DNA of 64,000 nucleotides from Desulfovibrio sp. (lineage in GTDB: Bacteria > Desulfobacterota > Desulfovibrionia > Desulfovibrionales > Desulfovibrionaceae). Position numbers and translations under genes: made by a program. Positions 391 through 23,215 of this stretch are shown here, piece by piece. The notes under the pieces were generated by a model that worked only from the letters and a program-made list of their open reading frames with translations, was not told the DNA's origin and did no database searches. Position 1 is the stretch's first letter, and the number at the start of each line of letters is the position of its first letter. The stretch spans positions 1 through 64,000 of the forward strand of contig NZ_WASP01000008.1 in NCBI RefSeq assembly GCF_009712225.1, written 5' to 3'.

Positions 391-456
391 TTCGTTATCT
401 GGCGAATTGTGCTTGACTTGCCACCGCACTCGCCTTACATTTCGCCATATAACGAA
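391..456 (+). promoter_or_regulatory. arsR promoter flanked by two inverted ArsR-type operators
   Basis: A sigma70-like promoter TTGACT (413-418), 16-base spacer, TTACAT (435-440) is bracketed by two 16-base elements: TTCGTTATCTGGCGAA at 391-406 and TTCGCCATATAACGAA at 441-456. The second is the reverse complement of the first with one mismatch, and each is itself an imperfect palindrome. One element lies just upstream of the -35 and the other directly after the -10, where a bound repressor would block transcription. By position they are operators for the ArsR protein encoded at 494. This is inferred from position and symmetry. Confidence 0.75.
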
Positions 457-493
457 TTGAAAAAGACATCCACCTTCCTGAGGGGTTTTGTTT

Positions 494-922
494 ATGCTCA
501 CATATGTCTCAATAATTCGGGCTCTTGGAGATGAAAACCGCCTGCGGATACTCATGGCGTTGCGCCAACGCCCTCTGTGCGTTTGCGAGATAACCACGCT
601 TTTGGGCTTGGCAGCATCCACCACATCCAAGCATCTCTTTATATTGCGCCAGGCCAGACTGATCGAGAGCATCAAGAATGGACGCTGGGTTTACTACCGA
701 TTGCCCGCCAAACCAGTGGATTGCGTACGCGATGCGCTTGCGCTCACCATACGTGAGCTGGCCGGCTGCCCGCAGATATTGCAGGACGACGCTACCCTGC
801 CTGGCATTTCACATAACACGAACATCCATGAATTTTTCAAGCAAAAGCATATTCCCGTACCTGCCGACCAACCGGACGGCAGCGAGGAAGAAGCGGCAGC
901 ACAGCACGGCAACCAGCCGTAA
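494..922 (+). CDS. ArsR/SmtB-family metal(loid)-responsive repressor
   Basis: This 142-residue winged-helix repressor fits the ArsR/SmtB family, which leaves DNA when a metal or metalloid binds. The N-terminal part carries the ALGDENRLRIL helix typical of the family. A Cys-Val-Cys pair (about residues 29-31) sits where ArsR-type sensors bind As(III) or soft metals, followed by the recognition helix (STTSKHLFILRQARLI) and the wing (GRWVYYRL). The ATG at 494 is preferred over TTG at 488 because AGGGG lies 8 bases upstream. It precedes a metal-efflux ATPase by 16 bases, so it most likely controls both genes. The inducing metal cannot be named from sequence; the CxC motif resembles the arsenical class, while the neighbour suggests Zn/Cd/Pb. 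Confidence 0.88.
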   Translation: MLTYVSIIRALGDENRLRILMALRQRPLCVCEITTLLGLAASTTSKHLFILRQARLIESIKNGRWVYYRLPAKPVDCVRDALALTIRELAGCPQILQDDATLPGISHNTNIHEFFKQKHIPVPADQPDGSEEEAAAQHGNQP

Positions 923-938
923 TTTCAGGAGACTCTTA

Positions 939-3002
939 ATGGATTCCACCAAGCTTGCTCCCTTGCAGGCCACAGCCTGCTGCGCTTCATGCGGCCCCGT
1001 ACCCAGCAAAGGGCCATCTTGCGATCAAGACCACGGCTGCTCGTGTTGCACACCCACCCCAACCACTGACACTGCCGCAGATCAGGAATACAGCTGCGCC
1101 TGCTGCTCGAGCGATCACGACCACGAACACGGCCCGGAAGATCAAAGGCGCGAGCTGATTAAAATGGGCATCTCTGCCCTGCTGTTTGCCATCGGTATGG
1201 TTGCAGACGACAAGTTTGAAGCCTTCATGCCAAGCTGGCTCGTCATAGCCGTATTCTACGCCCTGCCATATATATTGTGTGGCTATGAGGTATTGCGCGT
1301 TGGCTTCAAGAGCATTTTGAAGGGCGACTTTTTTAATGAATTCACACTGATGGGCGGCGCGACCATAGCGGCCATAGCTCTGGGGCAACTGCCCGAGGCT
1401 GTAGGCGTGATGCTGTTTTACTGCGTGGGTGAATTTGTGCAGGAACGCGCCGCAGGGCGCTCGCGCCGCTCCATCAAAGCCCTGCTTGCGGCCCGGCCTA
1501 GTGTTGCCCATGAAATGCTGGCCGATGGCAGCACGCGCGACGTGGAACCGGAGGTTCTTGGCCCCGGCAGCCACATTCTAGTACGCCCAGGCGAAAAGAT
1601 TCCTCTGGATGGAGCTGTGCTTGAAGGCGAATCACAGGTTGATACCTCGCCCCTTACAGGCGAATCCGTACCTCAGCGCATAGCCCCCGGCAGCCGCGTG
1701 TTGGCCGGAACCATCAATCTTAACGCTGCGTTACGTGTGGAAGTTACCACGGCTTTTGCCGATTCATCCATTGCACGCATACTTGAGATGGTGGAAAACG
1801 CCGTGGCCCGCAAGGCTCCCACGGAGCGTTTCATCACCCGCATGGCCCGCTGGTACACCCCGGCCGTAACCGGCATCGCCCTGCTGGTGGCAGTGCTGCC
1901 GCCACTGTTTGGGCTTGGCCCCTTCTCGCAGTGGATATACCGCGCCCTGGTGCTGCTGGTTATTTCGTGCCCTTGCGCCCTGCTCATATCCATTCCGCTT
2001 GGCTACTTTGGCGGCATCGGTGCAGCCTCGCGACGGGGCATACTTATCAAGGGCGGCGCTGTGCTCGACAGCCTGCGCGACATCCGCGTGGCGGCTCTGG
2101 ACAAAACCGGAACCCTCACCGAAGGAGTGTTTGAAGTAAACGCCCTGCTGCCCGCCCCTGGCATTGCAGAGACAGACCTGCTGGCCGCAGCCGCTCTGGC
2201 AGAGAGCCGTTCAAATCACCCCATTGCGCGTTCCATCCTGCGTGCCGCGCACAACCATGGAATTATTACTGACGACGCATCCCTCACCAGTATGCAGGAA
2301 GTGCCCGGCATGGGCGTGGTAGCCGCCACAGCCGCAGCGGAGCTGTTGGCGGGCAACGCCGCCCTGCTGACAAGCCGTGGGCTTACCCCAATGGAGGTGA
2401 ACCTCCCCGGTAGCGTGGTACACGTTGCAAGGGATGGCAAGGTGCTGGGCGCGCTGGTGGTGGCCGACCGCCTCAAGCCGCAGTCGCCGCAGGCCATTGA
2501 AGACCTGCGCCATCTTGGCGTGCAACAGATTGTCATGCTCACGGGCGACCGGGAAGAACAGGCCCGCCCCGTGGCCCAACAGCTCAAGCTTGATTCGCTG
2601 CGCGCAGGCCTGCTGCCCGAAGACAAGGCCGGAGCCCTCGAAGCCCTTGGCCCGGTAAAGAATACCATCTTTGTGGGCGACGGCATCAACGATGCCCCGG
2701 TGCTGGCAACAGCCGGCGTGGGCGTGGCCATGGGCGGCCTGGGCGCAGAGGCGGCCATTGAGACAGCCGACGTGGTGATTCTGGACGACAACCCCGCCCG
2801 CCTGCCAGAGCTTTTGCGCATAGCACGCCGCACCCGAACCATCGTGTGGCAAAACATTGTCATGGCGCTGGGCATCAAGGGGCTGTTCATGGCCCTTGGC
2901 ATCGTGGGACTCTCCGGCCTGTGGGAAGCCGTATTTGCTGATGTGGGCGTGGCGCTGATGGCCGTGCTTAACGCTGCCCGCGCAGGCAAGATAGAAAACT
3001 AG
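939..3002 (+). CDS. cadA: P1B-type heavy-metal efflux ATPase (Zn/Cd/Pb type)
   Basis: This 687-residue inner-membrane pump would use ATP to expel soft divalent metals. The family signatures are present: TGES in the actuator domain, CPC in the transport helix (about residues 344-346), the phosphorylated DKTGTLT (Asp about 387), the HP dipeptide (SNHPIA), TGDR and GDGINDAP. The last helix carries ADVG, matching the Asp of the Zn/Cd/Pb subgroup. It lacks a standard CxxC metal-binding ferredoxin-fold domain; residues 1-65 instead hold ten cysteines (14, 15, 18, 28, 34, 36, 37, 53, 55, 56) and a DHDHEHG stretch. ATG 939 follows AGGAGA and removes an upstream overlap with arsR. Substrate (Zn, Cd or Pb) is inferred. 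Confidence 0.92.
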   Translation: MDSTKLAPLQATACCASCGPVPSKGPSCDQDHGCSCCTPTPTTDTAADQEYSCACCSSDHDHEHGPEDQRRELIKMGISALLFAIGMVADDKFEAFMPSWLVIAVFYALPYILCGYEVLRVGFKSILKGDFFNEFTLMGGATIAAIALGQLPEAVGVMLFYCVGEFVQERAAGRSRRSIKALLAARPSVAHEMLADGSTRDVEPEVLGPGSHILVRPGEKIPLDGAVLEGESQVDTSPLTGESVPQRIAPGSRVLAGTINLNAALRVEVTTAFADSSIARILEMVENAVARKAPTERFITRMARWYTPAVTGIALLVAVLPPLFGLGPFSQWIYRALVLLVISCPCALLISIPLGYFGGIGAASRRGILIKGGAVLDSLRDIRVAALDKTGTLTEGVFEVNALLPAPGIAETDLLAAAALAESRSNHPIARSILRAAHNHGIITDDASLTSMQEVPGMGVVAATAAAELLAGNAALLTSRGLTPMEVNLPGSVVHVARDGKVLGALVVADRLKPQSPQAIEDLRHLGVQQIVMLTGDREEQARPVAQQLKLDSLRAGLLPEDKAGALEALGPVKNTIFVGDGINDAPVLATAGVGVAMGGLGAEAAIETADVVILDDNPARLPELLRIARRTRTIVWQNIVMALGIKGLFMALGIVGLSGLWEAVFADVGVALMAVLNAARAGKIEN

Positions 3003-3006
3003 CCAG

Positions 3007-3050
3007 GAACAGCGGGGGAAGGAGCACTGGCTTCTTCCCCCGCTGTTCTT
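3007..3050 (+). terminator. Intrinsic terminator after the metal ATPase
   Basis: A perfect 14-base-pair stem (3007-3020 with 3035-3048) starts 4 bases after the ATPase stop and is followed by TTTATAT. Because the ACT-protein gene converges from the other side, it may work in both directions. Confidence 0.85.
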
Positions 3051-3087
3051 TATATGGATACGATTGCTGCCGGACAAAACAGCCGGA

Positions 3088-3465
3088 CTAACGCACCGGG
3101 TTCTCGATGCTGTAACCGCCCGCTTCAAGCGCTGTTTGGGCCAGATCAAGATTCTCGGCCTTTACAAGTATATAATCCGTATCAAAGGTGGAAACGGCAA
3201 AAATACTGATGCCCGCCTTTGCCAGCACTGTTGAAATACCCGCCATCACGCCGGTGAGGACAAAATCCATTTTTTCGGCCACTCGCAGGGCGCGCCAGCC
3301 GTCCTCTCGGGCAAGGGTGGCGTGGGGCACATCCACAGTCAGACACACCACCGAAATTTCGGCATCTGTCTTGCCCACAAAGAGCCACGGAATGTTAAAA
3401 TTGACGGCACGCAGGTTCTCGACCTTGCAAACGCTGAACTTTCCTTCAATTATTTGTAGCCGCAT
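3088..3465 (-). CDS. ACT-domain protein (CASTOR/ACT-like)
   Basis: The 125-residue product resembles small stand-alone ACT-domain proteins that bind amino acids or similar ligands. The C-terminal half (VLTGVMAGISTVLAKAGISIFAVSTFDTDYILV, split here by eye into helix and strand) is the typical ACT pattern of a small-molecule-binding fold. No catalytic domain is attached, so a regulatory or ligand-sensing role is likely, but the ligand is unknown. It lies 69 bases downstream of ruvB on the same strand and may be cotranscribed with ruvAB. Confidence 0.75.
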   Translation of the reverse strand: MRLQIIEGKFSVCKVENLRAVNFNIPWLFVGKTDAEISVVCLTVDVPHATLAREDGWRALRVAEKMDFVLTGVMAGISTVLAKAGISIFAVSTFDTDYILVKAENLDLAQTALEAGGYSIENPVR

Positions 3466-3534
3466 GCTTACTCCGTCTGTTTATGCCGTCAAGTTATCCC
3501 GTGCAGGGAAGTTTGGGCCGGAACGAGCATACAC

Positions 3535-4536
3535 CTAAGAAAGCAGCATTTTCAAGTGCCGGTAAGCCAGAGCCGTTGCCATGCGCCCCCGTGGAGTGCG
3601 TTTCAAAAAACCGCACTGTATGAGATAGGGCTCGTAAATATCCTCAATGGTACGCACTTCTTCCGAGCAGGCCACCGCCAGGGTTTTGATGCCCACTGGC
3701 CCGCCGTCGTAATGCTTGATGAGCACTTCCAGCAGCTTGCGGTCCATCTGGTCAAGACCCAGCTCATCCACATCCATGCGCTTCAGCGCAGCCGAGGCCT
3801 GGTCGCCAGTCACCATGCCGTCGCCGTGCACCAGCGCAAAGTCGCGCACACGGCGCAACAGCCGGTTGGCAATACGGGGCGTGCCGCGTGAACGACGGCC
3901 AATTTCCGCCGCGCCGTCGGTGGTCACCTCCACCCCAAGAATGCGCGCCGTGCGCTGCACCACGCGGGCCAGATCGTCGGGCGTGTAGTATTCAAGCCGC
4001 GCCACAATACCAAACCGGTCGCGCAGCGGCGAAGATATCAAGCCCATGCGAGTGGTGGCCCCCACAAGGGTAAAGGGCTCAAGATCAATCTTGACCGTGC
4101 GCGCCGCAGGCCCCTGCCCGATCACAAGATCAAGCTTGAAGTCTTCCATGGCTGGGTACAGCACTTCTTCCACGGCAATGGGCATGCGGTGGATTTCATC
4201 CACAAAAAGGATGTCGTGCCGGTTGAGATTGGTGAGGATGGCGGCAAGATCGCCGCTACGCTCAAGTACCGGCCCCGATGTGCACACAAGGTTGACGCCC
4301 AGCTCGGATGCCATGATCTGTGCCAGAGTGGTTTTTCCAAGACCGGGGTTGCCGTAAAAAAGGGTGTGATCGAGGGCCTTGCCTCGCTCTCGCGCTGCGC
4401 CAAGGTACACGCGCAGGTTGGCGCGCAACTCGTCCTGCCCGATAAAATCGTCAAGGCTGCGGGGGCGAACACTTTCGTCGATGCCCGTGCCGCAGTCTGT
4501 GGCGCAGGCAAAGTCCTGACTGGTGGAATCAGACAT
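3535..4536 (-). CDS. ruvB: Holliday junction branch-migration ATPase RuvB
   Basis: RuvB is the hexameric AAA+ motor that drives branch migration of Holliday junctions held by RuvA. The 333 residues match the usual family length. Visible motifs are Walker A GNPGLGKT, Walker B DEIHR, sensor 1 GATTR and the C-terminal winged-helix region beginning near [18 protein letters not shown]. The start overlaps the ruvA stop by one base (TGATG), showing translational coupling. ruvC is not in the window next to them. Confidence 0.97.
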
Positions 4537-5147
4537 CAGGCCTTACCTCTGGCGAGCGCCTTGAGGGAGGCGCGCAGTGCACCGGTAACGTCAAGATCCG
4601 GCTCTTCGTGCAGCAGTTTTTTAACCAGCGGGGCGCACTCGTCCGGCTCGTAGCCAAGGTTGCCAAGGCCGTCGAGCACATCACGAAACACCGAACCGGG
4701 CCTCGTGCCAGAGCTCAGCACCGCAGCCTGCGGCACATCCTCGACCTTGAGCTTGTATTTGAGCTCCAGAAAAACGTGCTCGGCGGTTTTTTTGCCAATG
4801 CCCGAAACGCGGGTGAGGGCCAGCACGTCGTCTTCCAGCACCACACGGCGCAGGTCGTCGGGCCTGAAAATGGAAAGAATGCCCAAAGCAGTGCGCGCGC
4901 CTACCTTGGAGATGGAAACCAGCACCTCAAAGGTCTGTCGCTCTTCAAACGTGGCAAAGCCAAAAAGTTCCAGCGCGTCTTCACGCACGGCAAGACTTGT
5001 GTACAGAGCCAGGGGCTCCCCCCTGCCGGGCAGGGCGGCCAGCGTATGGGCAGGCAGGGCCACTTCGTAGCCCACGCCACCCTCGGTAACGATCAGGCAG
5101 GCATTGCCCCATATTTCGGCCAGTCGGCCTTCAAGATAGGCGATCAT
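4536..5147 (-). CDS. ruvA: Holliday junction DNA-binding subunit RuvA
   Basis: RuvA binds the four-way junction as a tetramer and loads RuvB. The 203-residue protein starts [12 protein letters not shown], the standard family N-terminus; a longer frame to 5189 is rejected because AAGGAA lies just upstream of ATG 5147. The OB-fold N-terminal domain is followed by helix-hairpin-helix motifs ([29 protein letters not shown]) and a C-terminal domain that contacts RuvB. It is coupled to ruvB by a one-base stop/start overlap. Confidence 0.96.
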
Positions 5148-14264: not shown

Positions 14265-15110
14265 CTAACGCAGAAACAGCCCTTCGGAAGGCAGGGTTTT
14301 ACCCATGATTGCCGCTGCACGGCCCACCAGGGTTTCAATGGCCGCACGGCCAGAGGGACCAAGATCAAGACTGAAGTCGGTCACAAAGGTCTTGATGTGG
14401 GCGCTGGTGACGCTTTCGTCCATCTCCTGCGCGTGGGCGCGTATGAATTCGCGCGAATCATTTGGGTGTGCATTGGCGTAGGCCAAACTGGCCGTAATGG
14501 TGTTCTGCACGCGCCGGGCGAGGGCTATCGGCAGATCGCGCCTTACGGCAATGGCCCCCAGCGGCAGGGGCAACGAAAATTCGGCCTCCCACCACTGGCC
14601 CAGATCAAGCAGCTTTACAAGGCCCTGCCGGGAATAGGTAAAGCGCCCCTCATGGATAATCAGTCCAAGATCGGCCTCGCCGTTTGTGACGGCAGCCATC
14701 ACGTCGCTGAACAGCATCTCCTTGCGCGGCCCCTGAAAACCGCCGTGCAGGGTCAGCAACAGGTTGGCCGTGGTCATCAGGCCGGGCACGGCCACCGTGG
14801 CGTTGCGCCAGTCTTCGGGCTTCAAATTTTTGCGGGCCACCACAAGGGGGCCGCAGCCCCAGCCCAGCGCCGCGCCAGAAGACAGCAGGGCATAATCCTG
14901 CATTATCTCTGTGGTTGCGCCAAGCGACATCTTGGTTACGTCCAGAGCCTTTTGCCGCGCAAGAGTGTTCAGTTCTTCCACATCGGCCATGTGCGGCTTG
15001 AAAGGAGCGGGAATCGGCACAAGCCCGTGCAGCATGGCGTGGAAGATATAAGTATCGTTGGGACAGGGCGAAAGACCAAAAGACAGGTTTTGCGGCGGCA
15101 AGGCAGACAT
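14265..15110 (-). CDS. mqnD: 1,4-dihydroxy-6-naphthoate synthase MqnD
   Basis: MqnD turns cyclic dehypoxanthine futalosine into 1,4-dihydroxy-6-naphthoate, a late step of the futalosine menaquinone route. The 281-residue protein shows the family start LSFGLSPCPNDTYIFHAM and the two-lobed periplasmic-binding-like fold, with the ligand/catalytic His in IIHEGRF. GAGG lies 6 bases before ATG 15110, so the longer frame to 15179 is rejected. It is divergent from mqnE, with an 84-base shared promoter region. Confidence 0.94.
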   Translation of the reverse strand: MSALPPQNLSFGLSPCPNDTYIFHAMLHGLVPIPAPFKPHMADVEELNTLARQKALDVTKMSLGATTEIMQDYALLSSGAALGWGCGPLVVARKNLKPEDWRNATVAVPGLMTTANLLLTLHGGFQGPRKEMLFSDVMAAVTNGEADLGLIIHEGRFTYSRQGLVKLLDLGQWWEAEFSLPLPLGAIAVRRDLPIALARRVQNTITASLAYANAHPNDSREFIRAHAQEMDESVTSAHIKTFVTDFSLDLGPSGRAAIETLVGRAAAIMGKTLPSEGLFLR

Positions 15111-15194
15111 TTTTTCCTCACATTGACAGCGTGCGGCGGCGGGGCTTAATCTGCGAGCGGCATTTTGCCCCCAATCCATGCACAGGATTCAAAT

Positions 15195-16334
15195 ATGCTC
15201 GACGCAACATACTACGCCGCACTGGGCCTTTCGTCTATCCGCGAAAAGGTGCTCTCCGGGGAGCGGCTTTCGCCCGAAGACGGGCTTACCCTGTTCAATT
15301 GCCCCGACATTACCGCAGTGGGCGCGCTGGCCCTGCACGTGCGCTGCCGCCTGCACGGGCACAAGGCCTTTTATGTGGTCAACCGACAGATCAACTACAC
15401 CAACGTGTGCGTCAACGGTTGCACATTTTGCGCCTTTCGCCGCGATACAGAGGACGAACCGGGCGCATTCGCCATGAGCCTCGACGACGTGCTCACGCGC
15501 CTGCGCGCGGCGGACGCAACGCCCCTGCATCTCGACGAGCTGCACATTGTTGGCGGCTGCCACCCCACCCGGCCCCTGGCCTGGTTTGAAGAAATGATCC
15601 GCGCGGTGCGGGCCTTTAACCCCAACCTGCCGGTCAAGGCATTTACCGCCGTTGAAATCGAGCACTTTGCCCGCCTTGAGGGCATCAGCACCCTTGAGGT
15701 GCTCAAGCGCCTGCAGAATGCTGGCCTCGTGATGATGCCCGGCGGCGGCGCGGAAATTTTTGACGAGCAGATACGCCCGCAAATCTGCCCCCACAAGGCA
15801 GATGCCAAGGCATGGCTGCGCATTCAGGGCGAGGCCCACAGCCTTGGCATTGCCACCAACTGCACCATGCTGTTTGGGCATATCGAAACGTACGAGCACC
15901 GCATCGACCACCTCTGCCGCCTGCGCGAGCAGCAGGACAAGAGCGGCGGCTTTACCTGTTTCATTCCCCTGCCCTTCCTCACCGAGCACAGCCGCCTGAA
16001 GCTGCCGGAAGACAAGGTTGGCCCCCAGCGCGGGCTTGACCAGCTGCGCACGGTGGCTGTTTCGCGCCTCATGCTCGACAACATTCCCCATCTCAAGGCC
16101 TACTGGATCATGATGGCCCCCAAATTGGCTCCCGTTGCCCTGTGGTACGGTGCCGACGACCTGGATGGAACCATCATTGAAGAACGCATCGGCCACATGG
16201 CTGGCGCGCAGTCTGCCCAGGGCATGACCATTGAGGAGCTGGAGCACCTAATACGCGAATCGGGCTTTACCCCTGTGCGGCGCAACGCCACCTTCAACAC
16301 CCTGAACGACGACCCCTCGGAGGCGCGCCAGTGA
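15195..16334 (+). CDS. mqnE: Aminofutalosine synthase MqnE
   Basis: MqnE is a radical SAM enzyme that joins 3-[(1-carboxyvinyl)oxy]benzoate to an adenosyl group to give aminofutalosine. The 379 residues carry the CxxxCxxC motif in NVCVNGCTFCAF and the MPGGGAEIF motif shared by the CofH/MqnE/MqnC group. The features RRDTEDEPGAF and LHIVGGCHPTRPL fit MqnE better than MqnC. ATG 15195 is favoured over 15165 because AGGATT lies just upstream. Its stop overlaps the GTG start of mqnC (GTGA). Confidence 0.93.
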   Translation: MLDATYYAALGLSSIREKVLSGERLSPEDGLTLFNCPDITAVGALALHVRCRLHGHKAFYVVNRQINYTNVCVNGCTFCAFRRDTEDEPGAFAMSLDDVLTRLRAADATPLHLDELHIVGGCHPTRPLAWFEEMIRAVRAFNPNLPVKAFTAVEIEHFARLEGISTLEVLKRLQNAGLVMMPGGGAEIFDEQIRPQICPHKADAKAWLRIQGEAHSLGIATNCTMLFGHIETYEHRIDHLCRLREQQDKSGGFTCFIPLPFLTEHSRLKLPEDKVGPQRGLDQLRTVAVSRLMLDNIPHLKAYWIMMAPKLAPVALWYGADDLDGTIIEERIGHMAGAQSAQGMTIEELEHLIRESGFTPVRRNATFNTLNDDPSEARQ

Positions 16335-17461
16335 GTACGTTTTTTCCCGCGCACAGCCCCTTTGACGAACAGAGCGCAGAATTTGAAGACGTGCGTAAAG
16401 CCGTAGCCATGGCTGCCAGCGGCCAGCGCCTGGACCGCGCCGCCGCCGAGGCCCTGTACTACAAGGCTAGCCTGCACACACTTGCCCAGTTGGCCCACGC
16501 CATGCGTCTGCGCATGCACCCCGACCCCATCGTGACCTACGTGGGCGACCGCAACATCAACTATTCCAACGTGTGCGTGTGCGCCTGCCGCTTCTGCGCC
16601 TTTTTCCGCGCGCCCGATCAGGAAGGCGGCTATGTGATCAGCCGTGAAGAAATGGCAGAAAAAATCGAGGAGACCCTGGCCCTCGGCGGCACGCAGGTGT
16701 TGCTGCAGGGTGGGCACCACCCCGATCTGCCACTGGAATGGTACGAAGACCTGCTGCGCTGGATGCACGACACCTGGCCCCAGCTGCACATCCACGCTTT
16801 TTCGCCGCCAGAAATCTTTTTCTGGTCCGAAAAATTCGGTCTTTCCGTGCCGGAAGTGCTGCGCCGCCTGAAAAAAGCTGGCCTGCAATCCCTGCCTGGC
16901 GGTGGAGCGGAAATTCTGCATACTGGCGTACGCGCCCAGGTTTCGCCCAACAAATGCACCGCCGAACAGTGGCTTGGCGTTATGGAAGAAGCTCACAAAC
17001 TGGGCCTGCGCACCACCGCCACTATGATGTTTGGGCACGAGGAAACCCCTGCCCACCGGCTCGACCACCTCTTTGCCGTACGCGAAGTGCAGGACCGCAC
17101 CCAAGGCTTTACAGCCTTTATTCCGTGGACCTTCCAGCCTGCGCACACACGCATCGACGTCGACCCGCTGCCCGCGCCCGCCTATCTGCGCCTGCTGGCC
17201 GTCTCGCGTCTGGTGCTCGACAATATCGCCAACATCCAGGCCTCGTGGGTGACCATGGGACCGCAGGTGGCCCAGCTGGCCCTGTTCTACGGTGCCAACG
17301 ACTTCGGCTCGCTGATGATCGAAGAAAACGTGGTGGCAGCCGCCGGGGTTTCCTTCCGCATGGACCGTAAGGACATCCACAAGGTCATCCGCACGGCGGG
17401 CTTCACCCCTGTGCAGCGCACCATGAACTACACGCCAGTGGTTCCCCAGCCTGAAGTGTAA
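16331..17461 (+). CDS. mqnC: Cyclic dehypoxanthinyl futalosine synthase MqnC
   Basis: MqnC is the radical SAM enzyme that cyclises dehypoxanthine futalosine. The 376-residue protein contains NVCVCACRFCAFFR (CxxxCxxC) and LLQGGHHPDLPLEWYEDLL, which is diagnostic of MqnC. It starts at GTG 16331, inside the mqnE stop, with GGAGG 7 bases upstream, so translation is coupled. The hypoxanthine-removing step (MqnB or an MTA nucleosidase) is not in this cluster. Confidence 0.94.
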   Translation: MSTFFPAHSPFDEQSAEFEDVRKAVAMAASGQRLDRAAAEALYYKASLHTLAQLAHAMRLRMHPDPIVTYVGDRNINYSNVCVCACRFCAFFRAPDQEGGYVISREEMAEKIEETLALGGTQVLLQGGHHPDLPLEWYEDLLRWMHDTWPQLHIHAFSPPEIFFWSEKFGLSVPEVLRRLKKAGLQSLPGGGAEILHTGVRAQVSPNKCTAEQWLGVMEEAHKLGLRTTATMMFGHEETPAHRLDHLFAVREVQDRTQGFTAFIPWTFQPAHTRIDVDPLPAPAYLRLLAVSRLVLDNIANIQASWVTMGPQVAQLALFYGANDFGSLMIEENVVAAAGVSFRMDRKDIHKVIRTAGFTPVQRTMNYTPVVPQPEV

Positions 17462-17487
17462 CAATTCATTTCCACTGTCTGTTCCAT

Positions 17488-17518
17488 GTTTCCGGGGGTT
17501 CGCCCCCGGAAACACATT
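17488..17518 (+). terminator. UUCG-capped hairpin with short U-run between mqnC and mqnA
   Basis: An 11-bp perfect stem (17488-17498 with 17503-17513) closes on TTCG, a very stable tetraloop in RNA, and is followed by ACATTTTTG. It looks like a weak intrinsic terminator or attenuator placed inside the mqn gene row, so mqnA may be transcribed at a lower level. A 3'-end stabiliser after processing is the alternative. Confidence 0.7.
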
Positions 17519-17575
17519 TTTGCCGCACATCAAGCCTGTCCATCGGCTTCGCCCCTGGCAAAAGGTGACTGCCCC

Positions 17576-18427
17576 GTGACCACGCAAGTAAAAAATCCCC
17601 CCGTTCTGCGCATGGGCCGCATTGGCTATCTCAACGTACTGCCCATCTATCACCCGCTTGAAGCGGGTATTCTACCCCACGATTACGAGCTGGTTTCCGG
17701 CCCGCCCGCGCTGCTCAACACCATGATGGCGCGTGGTGAACTGCATGTTTCTTCGTGCTCGTGCTTTGAATACGCTAGCCGCCCAGAGCGCTACCAGCTC
17801 ATAGAAGACCTTTCCATCGGCTCACGCGGGCCGGTCATGAGCGTGCTGCTGCTCTCGCGTGTGCCTTTTGACCAGCTTGAAGGACAGGAAATCCTAATCA
17901 GCGGTGAAACCCACACATCGGTTGCCCTGCTGCGTCTTATCATGCGTGACAGGTTCAAGCTCAATGTCAGCTATTCCACCGGGCAGGTTACCCCTGCCCT
18001 GCGCGGTGAAAAACCGCCTGTGGCCTTTCTGGCCATTGGCGACGAAGCCCTGCGCCTGCGCAACCACCCCGATTATCCTTACCGCCTTGACCTCGCCGAG
18101 GCTTGGCGCGACTGGACAGGTCTGCCCTTTATTTTTGGTCTGTGGGTGGTCAGCCGCGCCGCCGCAGAAGCAAAGCTGTTTACCAGCGACCCCGGCGCAC
18201 TACTGCGGCAGGGACGCGACTGGGGCCTCAAACACATGGACGTGATTCTCGACCTCACGGCCCACGGTTGCCCTCTTTCGCGCGATGAGCTGGCCTTTTA
18301 CTACAGCAAGGGCCTTGTCTACACTCTGGGCGAGGAAGAACAGCGCGGCTTGAGCCTTTTTTATCAGATGCTGGCCGATGCGGGCATGATCGCCACGGCT
18401 CCGGCTCTGGAATTCTTCAAGCTGTAA
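17576..18427 (+). CDS. mqnA: Chorismate dehydratase MqnA
   Basis: MqnA catalyses the first futalosine step, dehydrating chorismate to 3-[(1-carboxyvinyl)oxy]benzoate. The 283-residue protein has the family start RMGRIGYLNVLPIYHPL and the motif SCSCFEYA, with the two-domain periplasmic-binding-like fold it shares with MqnD. I chose GTG 17576, preceded by AAGGTGA, over a TTG/ATG-initiated extension from 17486 that would run through the hairpin. With mqnD, mqnE and mqnC it completes most of the pathway. Confidence 0.92.
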   Translation: MTTQVKNPPVLRMGRIGYLNVLPIYHPLEAGILPHDYELVSGPPALLNTMMARGELHVSSCSCFEYASRPERYQLIEDLSIGSRGPVMSVLLLSRVPFDQLEGQEILISGETHTSVALLRLIMRDRFKLNVSYSTGQVTPALRGEKPPVAFLAIGDEALRLRNHPDYPYRLDLAEAWRDWTGLPFIFGLWVVSRAAAEAKLFTSDPGALLRQGRDWGLKHMDVILDLTAHGCPLSRDELAFYYSKGLVYTLGEEEQRGLSLFYQMLADAGMIATAPALEFFKL

Positions 18428-18736
18428 TTGTTCGCTTCGCTCATTTTTTCATCTGAAAAAATTTGCCGCCAGGCAAAAAAATTATCGCGCGCGGAGCAGC
18501 CCGAACCCAGAGGTCGGGCTGCTCTTTTTTGCCTCATCTACATAGCAATTCAGTATGTTGTTAGCGCAAGTACGCCGCATTCTGAGCTGAGAACAGGCCG
18601 CAGATTGCCCGCAAAGCAACAGCCGGGCCAAGAATTTTCGCCAAATTATCATCCAGCAGATGGAATGGAAGCCAGTACTGCCCTAGTGTCAGTGCCCACG
18701 CGCGTACTGAACACTCTTTTATCGTGGGGTAGGTAT
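18428..18736. other. Intergenic region between mqnA and the DASS transporter
   Basis: The 309 bases contain the mqnA terminator (18494-18530) and then about 200 bases with no clear gene, which presumably hold the promoter of the transporter-AprA-like operon. I could not pick a convincing -35/-10 pair or a symmetric Crp/Fnr site. Confidence 0.4.
18494..18530 (+). terminator. Intrinsic terminator after mqnA
   Basis: Perfect 11-bp stem GAGCAGCCCGA / TCGGGCTGCTC (18494-18504 with 18514-18524) with a 9-base loop, followed directly by TTTTTT. It ends the mqn transcript 67 bases after the mqnA stop. Confidence 0.93.
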
Positions 18737-20284
18737 ATGACTCAGGTTCCTTCCGCCGCAGGGCGGTCTTTTTCGGGCTATCTTTGTGAAAATATTCGTA
18801 ATAGGGGCAAAAACCCCGTGCGCGCCTTCACCGGTTTTGCCCTTGCATGGCTTGCGTTCTTTGTACTGTGGACAGTGATTCCCCCTTTTGAAGGCCTTAC
18901 CCACAACGGAATGGCAGTTCTGGGCATTGTGGTATGGGCCAGCATCATGTGGGTGAGCGAAGCCATGCCCGCAGGCGTGACCGGTATTTCCATTCCCACC
19001 ATGCTGCTGATCACCCAGGCCCTGCCCTGGAACAACGGCAAGCCGCCCATGGCGATCATCTTTGCCGGGTTCACCGACCACGTTATCTGGCTGTGCCTGT
19101 TTGCCTTTATGGTTGCTGCGGTCATGCAGCTCATCGGCCTTGACCGCCGCATTGCGCTGGGCATTCTGGCCCGCTTCAGGGCTTCTTCCGTATGCCGGGT
19201 TATCTGGGGCATGTTCTTTGTAAACATTGTGCTGGGATTTCTGGTTCCGGCGGCCAACGCCCGCGCCGCCACCCTGCTGCCCGTGGTGCAGGGCATCTGC
19301 AACCTTCTGGGTGACACACCTGAAGAGCGCGCCGCCAAAAAGGCCCTTGTCATCCAGTCGCTGGTTTACGGCTCCATGATCTGCGGCATGTTCATCATGA
19401 CAGCCCACCTGCCCAACATGATCCTGGTGGGTATTTTTGAAAAGAACGGCTACACCAACGTCAACTTCCTCAACTGGATGCTGCTGCAGTTTCCGTATCT
19501 TGGCATGTTTGTGCTGACCAACTGGTGGACGCGCTACTACTTCAAGACCAACTGCGTTTCCATTGCGGGCGGCTCTGCCACCATCGAAAGAAGCTACAAG
19601 GAACTTGGCCCCATGAGCATGGCCGAGAAAACCCTTCTGGGCATTTTTCTGCTGGTCGGTTTCATGTTTGTGACGGGCAAGGGCAGCTTTATCTATGAAC
19701 TGCACCGGCAGCCCCTGGGGGTTATCGGCCTGGTGGGCATGATGGTGCTGTTTGCGCCCGGCATGATGCCCTGCACGTGGAAGGCCGTGCAGCAAAAAAC
19801 CATCTGGGGCACATTTTTGCTGTTGGGTGGCGCCATGACCATGACCACCGCCATGACCCAGGCCGGTGTGGCGCAGTGGCTTGCCGACCACATCCACAGC
19901 ATGGTTGTGGGCATGAACTGGTGGCAGACCCTGCTGACCATGATGGTGGGCACCCACATCATCCGCCTGGGCATGCTTTCCAACGTGGCTGCCGTGGCCA
20001 TGCTGGCCCCCGTGGTATTCGCCATGGCTCCCAAGCTTGGTCTGCACCCCGTGGCCTTTACCATGCTGGTGTGCGACACCGACACCTTTGCCTACCTGCT
20101 GCCCACGCAGATCACCGCCGCTGTCATTGCCCACAGCACCGAAACCTTCTCTTCCTCTGACTACGCCAAAGTAGGCTCTGTGGCTGTGCTTATCGCCATT
20201 GCCTACGGCGTATGCGTCATGGCCCCCTGGTATGCCCTGCTTGGCATGCCCGTGTGGAATCCCGCCGCGCCCTGGCCTTTTTAA
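18737..20284 (+). CDS. DASS/SLC13-family sodium-coupled anion transporter
   Basis: The 515-residue protein has 11 or so hydrophobic helices and the layout of the divalent anion:Na+ symporter family, whose members import sulfate, succinate, citrate or related anions. The second half carries LSNVAAVAMLAPV, corresponding to the family's second SN-containing hairpin; the first counterpart is PAANARAATLLPV, where the SNT signature is altered. ATG 18737 follows GGGGTAGGT; longer frames to 18428 have no family similarity. It is 30 bases upstream of the AprA-like gene, so its substrate is probably that enzyme's substrate. Sulfate, a sulfonate or a dicarboxylate are the candidates; sequence does not decide. 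Confidence 0.85.
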   Translation: MTQVPSAAGRSFSGYLCENIRNRGKNPVRAFTGFALAWLAFFVLWTVIPPFEGLTHNGMAVLGIVVWASIMWVSEAMPAGVTGISIPTMLLITQALPWNNGKPPMAIIFAGFTDHVIWLCLFAFMVAAVMQLIGLDRRIALGILARFRASSVCRVIWGMFFVNIVLGFLVPAANARAATLLPVVQGICNLLGDTPEERAAKKALVIQSLVYGSMICGMFIMTAHLPNMILVGIFEKNGYTNVNFLNWMLLQFPYLGMFVLTNWWTRYYFKTNCVSIAGGSATIERSYKELGPMSMAEKTLLGIFLLVGFMFVTGKGSFIYELHRQPLGVIGLVGMMVLFAPGMMPCTWKAVQQKTIWGTFLLLGGAMTMTTAMTQAGVAQWLADHIHSMVVGMNWWQTLLTMMVGTHIIRLGMLSNVAAVAMLAPVVFAMAPKLGLHPVAFTMLVCDTDTFAYLLPTQITAAVIAHSTETFSSSDYAKVGSVAVLIAIAYGVCVMAPWYALLGMPVWNPAAPWPF

Positions 20285-20314
20285 TCGCTCCAACCCTTTG
20301 CCCGAGAGGACATT

Positions 20315-22087
20315 ATGGCACGCATAAAAACAACCCATGCGGTCGATTTTCGGCCAACCAGCCTGAACGACATTGAAACCGTTGAGGTAACCGCCGACCT
20401 GCTGATCATCGGCGGCGGCAACGCGGGCTGCTTTGTGGCGACCGAGGCCGCAAAACTTAATCCCGCTGCCAGGATCGTTATTGTGGAAAAGGCCGACATC
20501 ATGCGCTCTGGCGCGTGTTCTGCCGGCATGGACGCCATCAACACCTACATTCCGGCAGGCAAGACGCCCGAAGACCTCGTGCGTTGGAGCCGTTCGCAGG
20601 TGGGCGGCGGCCCTCTGCGCGAAGATCTGTCCCTTTCCAACGCCCGTGAGCTCAACGAATGCGTTGAAGACCTCGAGCGCTGGGGCCTGCCCATTCTCAG
20701 GGATGAACAGGGCAACATCCGCTACCGTGGCAAGTGGGATATTTCCATCCACGGCGAGCAGCTCAAGCCCATCATGGCCGAAAAAGCCCTTGAAACCGGC
20801 GCAGATGTGTACAACCGCGTGGCCGCTACGGGTCTTTTGGCACACAATGGCCGCTGCACCGGCGCTACCGGCTTTGGCGTGCGTGACGGCAAGTTTTACG
20901 TGTTCCGCGCCCAGGCCACAGTGGTGAGCACCGGCGGCGCTGGCACACTGTACAAATCGTACACCGCCGACTCTACCGACAGCGGCTCGCAAATCTGGAT
21001 GTGTCCCTACTGCGTTGGTTCCGGCTATGCCATGGGCCTGCGCCAGGGCGCGGAACTCACCAGCCTTGAGCAGCGCTGGGTCGCCACGCGTACCAAGGAT
21101 TTTTGCGGCCCTGTGGATACCATCTCTGTGGGCTACGGCGCGCCCATCATCAACTCGCTGGGCGAACGCGTCATGAGCCGCTACGCCGGCCTTGGCGGTG
21201 ATGCGGCCCCGCGCTACATCCGCGCCAACGCTCCCATGGAAGAATGGCTGGCCGGTCGCGGTCCCTGCTTCTGCGACACCACCAACATGACGCCCGAAAA
21301 AACCAAGGCCATGATGGAAGACTACCTCAACGAACGTCCTTCCTTCGTGCTCTTTCTTGCCAGCCGTGGTCAGGACCCTTCCAAGGAACCCATCGAAATC
21401 TTCGGTTCAGACCCCTACATCATGGGCGGTCACACCGGCGGCGGCTACTGGGTGGACATGGAACGCATGACAACCCTGCCCGGCCTGTTTGCAGCTGGTG
21501 AAACAGCTGGCGGCAACCCCAACAAGTTTGTGGGCGGCTGCTGCGCCGAGGGCAAGCTGGCCGCGCGCGGCGCTCTGGCATACATGGCCGTGGCCGAAGC
21601 CCCCGTGCTCGATGCTGGCCAGGTCGCACAGGAAAAGGAACGGGTGTACGCCCCCCTGCTCACGCGAGGTGAAGAAGGCGTGAGCCCCATAGAAATGAAG
21701 GAACGCCTGCAAAGGCTCATGGACGAATACGCAGGTGGTTCCAGCCAGTTTTATCGCGCCAACGAGCAGCAGCTTGATTACGCCCTGCGGCACATCAAGA
21801 TTCTGCAAGACCAGTTCAAGTACCTGCGCGCCACTGACCTGCACGACCTCATGCAGGCCAACGAAACCATGGACCGCGTGGACGTGGCCGAGGCCGTGGT
21901 GCACCACCTCAAGGCCCGCAAGGAAACCCGCTGGGCTGGCTGGCAGACCCGTTCCGACTACCCGCAACGCGACGACGAAAACTTTGACTGCTTTGTGGAA
22001 TCGCGCCGCGACCCGGCGACAGGAGAAATGACAACCTTTACCCGTCCCTACGAGCAGCTGCTGCCCGGCGACAGGTACAAGCCATAA
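20315..22087 (+). CDS. AprA-like FAD-dependent oxidoreductase
   Basis: This 590-residue cytoplasmic flavoprotein belongs to the fumarate reductase/AprA superfamily and is closest in pattern to adenylylsulfate reductase alpha. The N-terminal FAD motif is LLIIGGGNAGCFVATEA. RSGACSAGMDAINTYI matches the AprA segment holding the substrate-binding Asn; QRWVATRTKDFCGPV matches the Arg-rich substrate loop; SDPYIMGGHTGGGYWV matches the segment with the active-site His. The end of the FAD domain reads FAAGETAGGNPNKFVGGCCAEG. It is about 70 residues shorter than typical AprA. GAGAGGA precedes ATG 20315. It is paired with an AprB-like ferredoxin but lacks sat or qmo neighbours, so it is likely a paralogue with a different substrate or role rather than the dissimilatory enzyme. 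Confidence 0.8.
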   Translation: MARIKTTHAVDFRPTSLNDIETVEVTADLLIIGGGNAGCFVATEAAKLNPAARIVIVEKADIMRSGACSAGMDAINTYIPAGKTPEDLVRWSRSQVGGGPLREDLSLSNARELNECVEDLERWGLPILRDEQGNIRYRGKWDISIHGEQLKPIMAEKALETGADVYNRVAATGLLAHNGRCTGATGFGVRDGKFYVFRAQATVVSTGGAGTLYKSYTADSTDSGSQIWMCPYCVGSGYAMGLRQGAELTSLEQRWVATRTKDFCGPVDTISVGYGAPIINSLGERVMSRYAGLGGDAAPRYIRANAPMEEWLAGRGPCFCDTTNMTPEKTKAMMEDYLNERPSFVLFLASRGQDPSKEPIEIFGSDPYIMGGHTGGGYWVDMERMTTLPGLFAAGETAGGNPNKFVGGCCAEGKLAARGALAYMAVAEAPVLDAGQVAQEKERVYAPLLTRGEEGVSPIEMKERLQRLMDEYAGGSSQFYRANEQQLDYALRHIKILQDQFKYLRATDLHDLMQANETMDRVDVAEAVVHHLKARKETRWAGWQTRSDYPQRDDENFDCFVESRRDPATGEMTTFTRPYEQLLPGDRYKP

Positions 22088-22102
22088 GTCAGGAGAACGA
22101 CA

Positions 22103-22432
22103 ATGCCGCCAAAAATCGACACGCACAAATGCAACGGCTGCAACGGGCGCGAAGAAACCCATTGCGAAGAAGTTTGCCCCGGCGATCTCATGGCCCTGAA
22201 CCCCACCACCGGCAAGGCATACCTGCGGGCCGCCCGCGACTGCTGGGACTGCATGTCCTGCATCAAGGCCTGCCCGGCGGGTGCGCTTGAAATCAAGATG
22301 CCCTACCAGTTGGGCTACTTCAAGGCGACGCTGCGCCCCATCATGGGCTCCAACTTCATTATCTGGAAGTGCCGCGACATCAACGGTCAGGAACAGACCT
22401 ACCGCTATGTGAACCGGCTGGACAAGGCCTGA
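22103..22432 (+). CDS. AprB-like two-cluster [4Fe-4S] ferredoxin subunit
   Basis: The 109-residue protein is an electron-transfer partner for the flavoprotein upstream. Eight cysteines in two groups (10, 13, 21, 25 and 47, 50, 53, 57) would bind two [4Fe-4S] clusters. The unusual first spacing C-x2-C-x7-C-x3-C-P and the CWDCMSCIKACPAGA second motif are those of adenylylsulfate reductase beta. It is shorter than typical AprB (about 150 residues or more) and lacks most of the C-terminal tail that wraps around AprA. Strong Shine-Dalgarno CAGGAGA; 15 bases after the flavoprotein stop. Confidence 0.85.
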   Translation: MPPKIDTHKCNGCNGREETHCEEVCPGDLMALNPTTGKAYLRAARDCWDCMSCIKACPAGALEIKMPYQLGYFKATLRPIMGSNFIIWKCRDINGQEQTYRYVNRLDKA

Positions 22433-22457
22433 TAGCACAGAGTATCTTGTAAAAAGA

Positions 22458-22497
22458 CGCCCGCGTCCCGCCGTATCTGCACGGCTGGGCGCGGGCG
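22458..22497 (+). terminator. GC-rich hairpin between the ferredoxin and regulator genes
   Basis: CGCCCGCG (22458-22465) pairs with CGCGGGCG (22490-22497), and inner CCC/GGG and CGGC-type pairs extend the stem with two bulges. There is no U-run after it, so it may be a processing or mRNA-stability element, or a leader structure for the regulator, rather than a strict intrinsic terminator. Confidence 0.45.
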
Positions 22498-22519
22498 CTC
22501 CACACAGGGAAGGATATTC

Positions 22520-23215
22520 ATGGACACATTCTGGCATCTGGAAAAGGAAGACTTTTTCAAGGGCATCGACGAGGCCAAGAGCGCCTTTTTAAAAAATGCC
22601 CAGCGCCTTGAATTGCCCAAGAACGAAATGGTCTTTCTTGAAGGCGACGCCGGAGATTTATGTTTTTACATAGAATCTGGCCTCATACGCATTTATTGTA
22701 TGGACCGCACAGGCAAGGAAATGACCTTTTCACTGCGTATGAAGGGCGAAATTTTTGGCATTTCAGAAGTGTTGAACAACTCGCCCCGCAAGGCCTGCGC
22801 GCAGACCGCCAGCGCCTCTGTACTCTACGCCATAAACCGGCAGGATTTTGAAACCATGCTGCAGGAGCACTACCCCCTTGCACGTAGCGTTATCACCCTG
22901 CTTGGACGCAGACTGCGCCAGATGGGCGACCTTGTGCGCCGCCAGAACAGCGACGTGGCAAACCGCCTTGCCAGCCTGCTCATTTCGCTGGCCTACGACA
23001 CCCTGCGCACCACCGAGGGCTGGAACAAACCCTGCGAAATTCCGCTCAACATACCGCAAGAGCAGTTGGCCTCCATGGTTGGCTCTACCCAGCCCACTGT
23101 CAGCGCCACCTTGCAGCAGTTTCGCAATGCTGGTCTGATTGTGGCATCGGGCAGGCGCATAGTGCTGCTCAACCCCATCGAGATGATCTACCGCCTCGAC
23201 CACAACCTGCTCTAG
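22520..23215 (+). CDS. Crp/Fnr-family transcriptional regulator
   Basis: The 231-residue protein has the N-terminal cyclic-nucleotide-binding-like beta barrel (residues about 15-125, with FLEGDAGDLCFYIESGLIRIY), the long dimer helix (residues 125-160) and a C-terminal winged helix with recognition segment QEQLASMVGSTQPTVSATLQQFRNAGLI. It lacks the N-terminal Fnr cysteines, so it is not a classical oxygen-sensing [4Fe-4S] Fnr. Its place at the end of the transporter-AprA-like-AprB-like row suggests it regulates them. The signal is unknown. AAGGA precedes ATG 22520. Confidence 0.9.
   Translation: MDTFWHLEKEDFFKGIDEAKSAFLKNAQRLELPKNEMVFLEGDAGDLCFYIESGLIRIYCMDRTGKEMTFSLRMKGEIFGISEVLNNSPRKACAQTASASVLYAINRQDFETMLQEHYPLARSVITLLGRRLRQMGDLVRRQNSDVANRLASLLISLAYDTLRTTEGWNKPCEIPLNIPQEQLASMVGSTQPTVSATLQQFRNAGLIVASGRRIVLLNPIEMIYRLDHNLL

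Follow-up and report, generated by a model that had tools for sequence, protein, structure and literature searches.

Which compound is handled by an enzyme that resembles the adenosine 5'-phosphosulfate (APS) reductase AprAB and is encoded together with an importer and a regulator of its own? This question is raised by four genes of Desulfovibrio sp. (GCF_009712225.1) at positions 18737-23215 of a 64,000-nucleotide stretch, referred to below as the window (NZ_WASP01000008.1, positions 1-64,000, forward strand). They encode a DASS transporter, an AprA-like flavoprotein, an AprB-like ferredoxin and a Crp/Fnr-family protein, and their positions, plus-strand orientation and order are as described in an initial annotation, which proposed a second, separately regulated APS-reductase-like enzyme for an imported anion. 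The AprAB-like character and the tie to an importer stand, whereas the use of APS is not supported, because most residues on the nucleotide side of the active site are replaced and the module occurs in genomes without a detected route to APS. On balance, and with slightly better than even chances, the operon is predicted to encode a reductase independent of ATP sulfurylase (Sat) that acts on a sulfonyl compound brought in by the importer, not on APS, and releases sulfite.

A third branch of the AprBA family

The flavin adenine dinucleotide (FAD) subunit (20315-22087, plus strand) comprises 590 amino acids, 72 fewer than the 662 of the host's own canonical AprA and thus close to the shortening by about 70 residues estimated at the outset. 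It scores 579.6 bits against NF005331, "adenylyl-sulfate reductase subunit alpha" (cut-off 557), and 384.3 bits against the aprA equivalog TIGR02061, which is under the cut-off of 641.75. By sequence it belongs to NF005331, but the substrate implied by the family name is not supported. Its best solved relative is the 3'-phosphoadenosine 5'-phosphosulfate (PAPS) reductase of Methanothermococcus thermolithotrophicus (MtPAPSR; PDB 8a8o, E 2.4e-140), followed by the AprA structures 1jnr and 2fja. These entries lie far ahead of all other PDB matches; the fold family also includes fumarate reductase. The partner subunit (22103-22432, plus strand) is a two-[4Fe-4S] ferredoxin of 109 amino acids that scores 82.5 bits against TIGR02060, under the cut-off of 135.65. 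As annotated, it keeps all eight cluster cysteines and lacks the canonical C-terminal tail; the electron-transfer residue Trp48 is also present, and these nine residues are invariant in all 21 ferredoxin rows compared.

Relatives were sought in 288 genomes of the host's family, in 395 genomes of the phylum and, separately, in a scan of named genomes. The flavoprotein was found in 59 of the 288 family genomes and in 16 of 44 genera, at 69-100% identity, and in nine further genomes outside the family at 67-79%. Beyond these, the closest relatives reach 35-43%, and the module flavoprotein is a discrete clade. The named-genome scan yielded 34 loci at 74-94% identity, all from Desulfovibrionaceae except L035 (Desulfocapsaceae) and L030, L032, L033 and L036, which are named merely as delta- or Proteobacteria. 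The last two of these, assigned to Myxococcota and Pseudomonadota, respectively, reflect either horizontal transfer or a binning or naming artefact. For one pair of flavoprotein genes (G008 and G010), NG86 estimates of dN 0.026 and dS 0.73 were obtained, and the gene is therefore under constraint.

A tree of 44 rows, 23 of them module proteins, was computed after removal of the duplicate L002 (same as L011); its root serves for drawing only and the outgroup branches are long. The module rows form one clade (100/100), whose sister group (98/92) unites canonical AprA (100/100) with the assimilatory and MtPAPSR rows (100/98). The module flavoprotein represents a third branch within the AprBA family, next to dissimilatory AprA and the assimilatory APS or PAPS reductases. 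Outside the AprA clade fall the PRK08275-type proteins and four other FAD proteins of the host, identified by family scan as two fumarate reductases (NF006383, 1049.7 bits, cut-off 663; NF042982, 1125 bits, cut-off 1100), an L-aspartate oxidase (a 353-residue piece; TIGR00551, 486.9 bits, cut-off 452.75) and GlpB. A position inside fumarate reductase or L-aspartate oxidase would have spoken against the initial annotation; the flavoprotein groups with neither of the host's two fumarate reductases nor with its L-aspartate oxidase, and membership in these families was rejected. Also rejected were a plain duplicate of the host AprA (30.7-36% identity, 30.7% by blastp, and a separate clade), membership in the MtPAPSR group (by residues and tree) and a viral copy (six viral_contigs stretches matched a pattern, none encoding a relative).

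Residues of the active site

In AprA, as reported in PMC2211403, the sulfate group and the flavin are contacted by Asn74, Trp234, Arg265 and His398, phosphate and ribose by Arg265, Val273, Gly274, Tyr95 and His446, and the adenine is clamped by Arg317 and Leu278. Asn76, Trp228, Arg259 and His373 of the window protein align with the first of these groups in the Archaeoglobus enzyme, so that the active-site Asn, Arg and His, whose loss would have spoken against an AprA-like enzyme, are kept. The first three occur in all 68 module proteins and the histidine in 67, the remaining protein having a masked residue there.

The nucleotide side differs. Four replacements are found in all 68 proteins (Tyr95 by Trp91, Gln145 by Asp142, Gly274 by Asp268 and His446 by Asn403), which makes W91, D142, D268 and N403 diagnostic. 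Leu278 is replaced by Val272 in 67 of them, the protein of genome G272 having Gln. Four of the six AMP-side residues of AprA (Tyr95, Val273, Gly274, Leu278, His446 and Arg317) are therefore changed, although the Tyr95 position is variable in canonical AprA too and is Met in the host's own copy. Gln145 would clash with a 3'-phosphate, and MtPAPSR has a Lys-Arg-Ser loop, according to PMC10322725. This loop, Lys120-Arg121-Ser122, reads K140 W141 D142 in the window protein; Asp142 is found in 68/68 and Trp141 in 67/68 module proteins, and residue 140 is variable (Lys in 39/68). The sulfonyl end of the pocket thus looks like that of AprA, and most of the leaving-group end looks unlike that of either AprA or MtPAPSR.

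One enzyme with exchangeable importers

The importer of the window (18737-20284, plus strand) is a DASS (SLC13) family anion:Na+ symporter of 515 amino acids, with 199.1 bits against TIGR00785 (cut-off 198.6) and a match to PF00939. The ATG at 18737 is the sensible start, the mechanical open reading frame (ORF) opening at TTG 18428. Its closest solved structure is VcINDY, and the SNT motifs, read from the alignment to VcINDY, are ANA(R) and SNV. They left sulfate versus carboxylate unsettled, as did the accessible sections of PMC5099947, PMC10980263 and PMC6359215 for the substrate.

An importer is encoded in the cluster of all 68 module genomes, namely DASS-1 in 36, a tripartite tricarboxylate carrier (TctC/B/A) in 17, TauE/SafE in 11 and DASS-2 in four, two of which were measured at 27-29% identity to the window DASS. 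In two genomes (G001 and G214) the Tct genes follow an HdrA-like gene on its downstream side. The G165 DASS gene is spread over two reading frames, and two-piece matches were obtained for TctC of G071 and for TctB of G011, which may reflect sequencing error or decay. A quickly built tree of the 68 flavoproteins shows 12 switches of importer type (minimum 3); well-supported branches alone force fewer. A single enzyme combined with repeatedly swapped importers suggests a substrate from outside. The DASS-linked context of the initial annotation holds insofar as an importer is tied to the enzyme, but DASS is just one of four interchangeable types and the context is wider.

The surrounding order is conserved as well. 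The aprB gene adjoins aprA in 68/68 genomes and a Crp homologue lies within the DNA examined in 63/68, an arrangement that, together with the universal importer, is beyond chance and marks a conserved module. The five genomes without a Crp homologue in that DNA comprise three with little downstream sequence (G037, G270 and G280), one with little upstream sequence (G658) and G374; in G001 the sole Crp match shown is about 9 kb from the module. In the named loci the order aprA-aprB-crp is found in 29 of 34, crp being upstream and divergent in L017, L019, L046 and L047, and L015 stops after aprA.

DASS and TctCBA transporters carry mostly carboxylates. It is therefore conceivable that a fumarate-reductase-like enzyme, with no sulfur chemistry, reduces an imported unsaturated di- or tricarboxylate; the fold family would permit it and the two arginines of the pocket could hold carboxylates. 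We regard this as unlikely, since the tree joins the flavoprotein to AprA and apart from the host's fumarate reductases and L-aspartate oxidase, the catalytic residues of AprA are kept, the ferredoxin is of the AprB type, TauE/SafE importers occur in 11 genomes, and DsrA is present in all 55 near-complete holders. Carbon-only reduction and the reduction of APS or PAPS are nevertheless live rivals.

Supply of APS in the holders of the module

The module might also be a spare APS or PAPS reductase for assimilation or scavenging, whose importer brings in sulfate or, in species lacking Sat, the APS or PAPS of neighbours. Several observations speak for it: the nearest characterised relative is a PAPS reductase, a DASS gene of Ilyobacter accompanies cysC-aprA-aprB-cysD and a gene for a GTP-binding protein, and two papers report sulfate transporters among DASS (PMC5840216) and a response of Bilophila to APS (PMC11610557).

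The genomes themselves give a divided picture. Sat (PF01747) is found in 51 of the 59 family module genomes, and canonical AprA exceeds its cut-off in 52, or in 53 when two high-scoring pieces in G264 are counted. In the host, Sat is encoded on contig C2 and canonical AprA on contig C17, so that the module is separate from sat, as annotated; qmo genes were not searched for in the host genome. Sat alone is missing from G047 and G089. Six genomes have neither Sat nor canonical AprA, namely G008 (79% complete), G010 (83%), G011 (98%), G182 (69%), G272 (99%, one contig) and G280 (62%). All six have a full-length flavoprotein with the signature residues, aprB and a Tct importer. The CysD/CysH family PF01507 (Pfam cut-off 22.5) was searched for in 23 of the 59 genomes. 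Among the six, G182 and G280 gave no match and the other four gave 23.2-27.3 bits, compared with 118-146 bits for the five best matches in other genomes. A family scan covering two of these weak matches named that of G272 a TtuA/NcsA-like tRNA thiolase and that of G010 a GMP synthase. APS kinase (PF01583, cut-off 21.1) gave no match in four of the six and partial-model matches of 22.7 bits in G010 and 20.8 bits in G011. Across the 59 genomes it is absent or at most 23 bits in 13, five of which are less than 90% complete. The host's own PF01583 protein reaches 86 bits, yet scores 94.3 against TIGR00455 (cut-off 138.7) and stays below every NCBIfam APS-kinase cut-off. Six holders thus appear to lack a convincing CysD or APS kinase and, hence, have no detected route to APS.

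A spare APS or PAPS reductase is for these reasons rather improbable. In addition, the module lies outside the MtPAPSR clade, and no cys genes occur within the window module. Other residues stand in the place of MtPAPSR Arg121 and Ser122 and of AprA Gln145; Asp142 is invariant, and Lys120 is kept in 39 of the 68 proteins. To our knowledge, carriers of the tricarboxylate and TauE types have not been described as importers of APS.

A possible sulfite sink and possible electron partners

DsrA (TIGR02064) has a match in 66 of the 68 module genomes, over cut-off in 62; the four pieces or lower-scoring matches are weaker evidence because DsrB also scores with TIGR02064. The two misses concern genomes that are 62-63% complete, and among holders with a completeness of 90% or more and a contamination of 5% or less DsrA is present in 55/55. 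This co-occurrence fits sulfite as the product. The host has two full-length dsrA copies (C5:815-2074 and C3:517966-519225), and several relatives, G036, G045, G053 and G095 among them, also show two.

Some lineages add possible electron partners. An HdrA2-like gene encoding about 800-850 amino acids follows aprB in 10 of the 68 genomes, eight of the nine outside the family plus G001 and G214; the one protein scanned has 525.9 bits against NF040770 (cut-off 1100) and a FlpD domain at its end. No HdrA-like gene stands beside the module in the other family genomes, the window included, except that G037, G270 and G280 have too little downstream sequence to judge. QmoC-like genes lie nearby in four genomes (G001, G214, G333 and G368) and HdrB-like genes in these four and G307. 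Five loci (G333, G368, G588, G658 and G307) encode PhnD-type periplasmic binding proteins. Three of these were compared with NCBIfam, all scoring under cut-off: two best match the sensor part of the tetrathionate kinase TtrS (8.3e-27 and 1e-22) and the third a phosphate/phosphite/phosphonate binding-protein family. These neighbours hint at a sulfur or phosphorus oxyanion, or an analogue, as the substrate. The Hdr/Qmo-like and PhnD-type neighbours together favour a reductive, respiratory role. The opposite direction, in which sulfite and an imported acceptor would yield a sulfonated product or sulfite would be detoxified, recalls the reverse operation of AprBA proposed for sulfur oxidisers (PMC2211403) but is very improbable, given ten operons with an HdrA2-like gene, some with QmoC/HdrB-like genes, the consumption of sulfite by the holders' DsrA and the lack of a measurable reverse reaction for the nearest studied relative MtPAPSR (PMC10322725).

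Upstream of crp in L095 (G272, probably T. muris), positions 409-4940 hold an SsuA/NMT1-type binding protein and, judged by eye, two M20-type peptidase-like ORFs and one that is TctC-like. A family scan of a G301 stretch yielded no NCBIfam name.

A putative operator and the upstream neighbours

The regulator gene (22520-23215, plus strand) encodes 231 amino acids with a cyclic nucleotide-binding domain (PF00027) and a Crp-type helix-turn-helix (PF13545), and its product is presumed to regulate the operon. Of the 59 family promoters, 43 were taken into the operator scoring. The palindrome TATCR-N6-YGATA precedes the first module gene with 10/10 positions in 34 of the 43 promoters; five score 9, two score 8 and two score 7. 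The expectation from dinucleotide shuffles is 0.04 perfect sites per 43 promoters. The operator is common to the DASS, tricarboxylate and TauE types of module and to seven of the nine loci outside the family. There are 76 exact matches in 1.64 Mb of loci; the oriented family loci show none away from the module, and two occur in L050 and L182, which belong to other clades. The copy in the window (18646-18663, plus strand), 74 bp upstream of the DASS start, is degenerate: with 8/10 positions, a score also obtained for 8.3 of 43 shuffled promoters, it does not by itself exceed chance, but it occupies the place where relatives carry better copies. No good second operator was found in the window (3 one-mismatch matches against 1.69 expected). 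From this co-occurrence, the Crp/Fnr protein is the putative ligand of TATCR-N6-YGATA. A study of Crp/Fnr regulons in Desulfovibrionales (Kazakov 2013), not turned up by our literature search, may already predict this operator.

Upstream of the module (14265-18427), family searches identified the futalosine-pathway menaquinone genes mqnE and mqnC and a VitK2_biosynth protein. The ORF at 14265-15179 (minus strand) has no NCBIfam match; it may be mqnD-like.

Proposed mechanism and its significance

In the mechanism that we propose, the importer, DASS in the window and elsewhere a tripartite tricarboxylate carrier, TauE/SafE or the second DASS, would take up a small sulfonyl-bearing anion that needs no activation by ATP. 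Candidates are organosulfonates or sulfo-carboxylates, esters of sulfate, and S-sulfonates, for example polythionates. Electrons would pass from the AprB-like ferredoxin to the FAD of the AprA-like subunit, in some lineages from the adjacent HdrA2/Qmo-like complex. The reduced flavin N5 would attack the substrate sulfur, held by Asn76, Trp228, Arg259 and His373, a leaving group other than AMP would depart, and the N5-sulfite adduct would decay to sulfite, which DsrAB respiration would convert to sulfide. The Crp/Fnr protein would turn the operon on through its operator. The enzyme probably works like AprBA at the flavin; the N5 chemistry is carried over from the AprA mechanism, and sulfite as the product and the direction of electron flow are likewise inferred. 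Small sulfonates or sulfo-carboxylates would fit the importers and PhnD-like proteins best, because a tripartite tricarboxylate carrier is a putative sulfolactate importer in T. muris (PMC10507020); polythionates and other S-sulfonates would be the inorganic alternative, suggested by the TtrS-like proteins of some loci.

Several points weigh against the release of sulfite from a compound other than APS. Some sulfonates have poor leaving groups, which would make the N5 mechanism hard. T. muris cells growing on taurine, sulfolactate or thiosulfate reportedly contained AprAB transcripts without detected AprAB protein (PMC10507020), and these three are therefore poor candidates. B. wadsworthia is reported to grow better with 10 mM APS and to express a PAPS reductase (PMC11610557). 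One jaw of the adenine clamp, Arg317, is retained as Arg303 in 68/68 proteins, and Val273 mostly too (Val267 in 60, Ile in eight). Claims about the pocket rest on alignment, because the AF2 model has low confidence near the active site (mean pLDDT 64.4, pTM 0.68, most active-site loops below 50) and, with 8a8o as its top Foldseek match, agrees only with the fold. In the six genomes, some weak hits to PF01507 and PF01583 exceed the lenient thresholds of Pfam. A Sat match in all nine genomes outside the family (in G593 a short one only) speaks against general Sat-lessness and, with the family counts, makes APS available to most holders. Finally, descent is a confounder of the co-occurrence with DsrA, which was counted in module genomes only.

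Should the release of sulfite from such an import be true, the group of Desulfovibrio, Bilophila and Taurinivorans would have in this module a new source of hydrogen sulfide. It is possible, although we hold it with less than even confidence, that a third class of AprBA-family enzymes is represented here, a flavin-N5 sulfonyl reductase that frees sulfite from a non-activated imported compound and offers sulfidogens an entry to dissimilatory sulfite reduction skipping both ATP sulfurylase and the known carbon-sulfur lyases, and that the 'AprAB' of Sat-less gut sulfidogens belongs to this class and not to sulfate reduction. The aprA gene serves as a marker of sulfur-cycle prokaryotes (PMC5099947). 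The flavoprotein passes NF005331, and members of its clade are found in genomes for which no APS route was detected; surveys may therefore wrongly count the module as sulfate reduction. Since the importers are interchangeable and the enzyme and operator conserved, comparing the carriers and their binding proteins offers a way to test for the substrate.

Comparison with known systems

No published description of the module as a unit was found in a literature search that covered few subscription papers. In this sense the 'undescribed system' of the initial annotation holds, but orphan 'AprAB' without Sat has already been remarked in T. muris and B. wadsworthia. PMC10507020 describes AprAB without Sat or QmoAB in T. 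muris, and PMC11610557 two AprAB-like clusters without Sat in B. wadsworthia; in these sources the orphans were taken for incomplete sulfate reduction or APS scavenging. The T. muris pair is probably the same module (G272, crp-tctCBA-aprAB, locus GC content 43.5%). The B. wadsworthia copies may belong to the module clade as well.

MtPAPSR (PDB 8a8o) shares the AprBA architecture, a short alpha subunit (571 amino acids), a short ferredoxin (104 amino acids) and the same catalytic residues (PMC10322725). It differs in forming a separate clade and in its KRS specificity loop, which is KWD in the window protein, and none of its partners, ATP sulfurylase, APS kinase, PAP phosphatase and Fsr, occurs within the window module. 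Dissimilatory AprBA (1jnr, 2fja and 3gyx) has in common with the module the FAD- and sulfonyl-side residues, the eight cysteines, Trp48 and, in ten members, Hdr/Qmo-like partners, whereas the module has the shorter alpha subunit, a tail-less AprB and changed nucleotide-side residues, and here does not lie with sat. An 'AprA' match of canonical length (35.8%) at 19848-21710 of NZ_CP061967.1, a 21.8-kb 'Klebsiella pneumoniae' plasmid, looks like contamination or mislabelling.

The assimilatory AprAB-like clusters (Ilyobacter pILYOP02 and Desulfobacterota L177 and L179-L184) have alpha subunits of 35-43% identity in a different clade. A DASS gene is present in Ilyobacter too. Unlike the module, these clusters sit with cysD/cysN, cysC, sulfate ABC transporter or cysteine-synthase genes, as read from annotation for Ilyobacter, by family scan for L177, L179 and L184 and by eye for L180-L183. 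The PRK08275-type pairs of cyanobacteria, Cupriavidus and rhizobia (L051-L053) are also two-subunit AprAB-like pairs near ABC importer genes, but they have Leu at the Arg265 equivalent, lack the Arg317 region and fall outside the AprA clade. Their loci in Pseudanabaena, Cupriavidus and Mesorhizobium encode HEAT-repeat proteins beside the ABC importers, and that of Pseudanabaena also YeiH and TauE/SafE. These pairs are another uncharacterised AprAB-like group.

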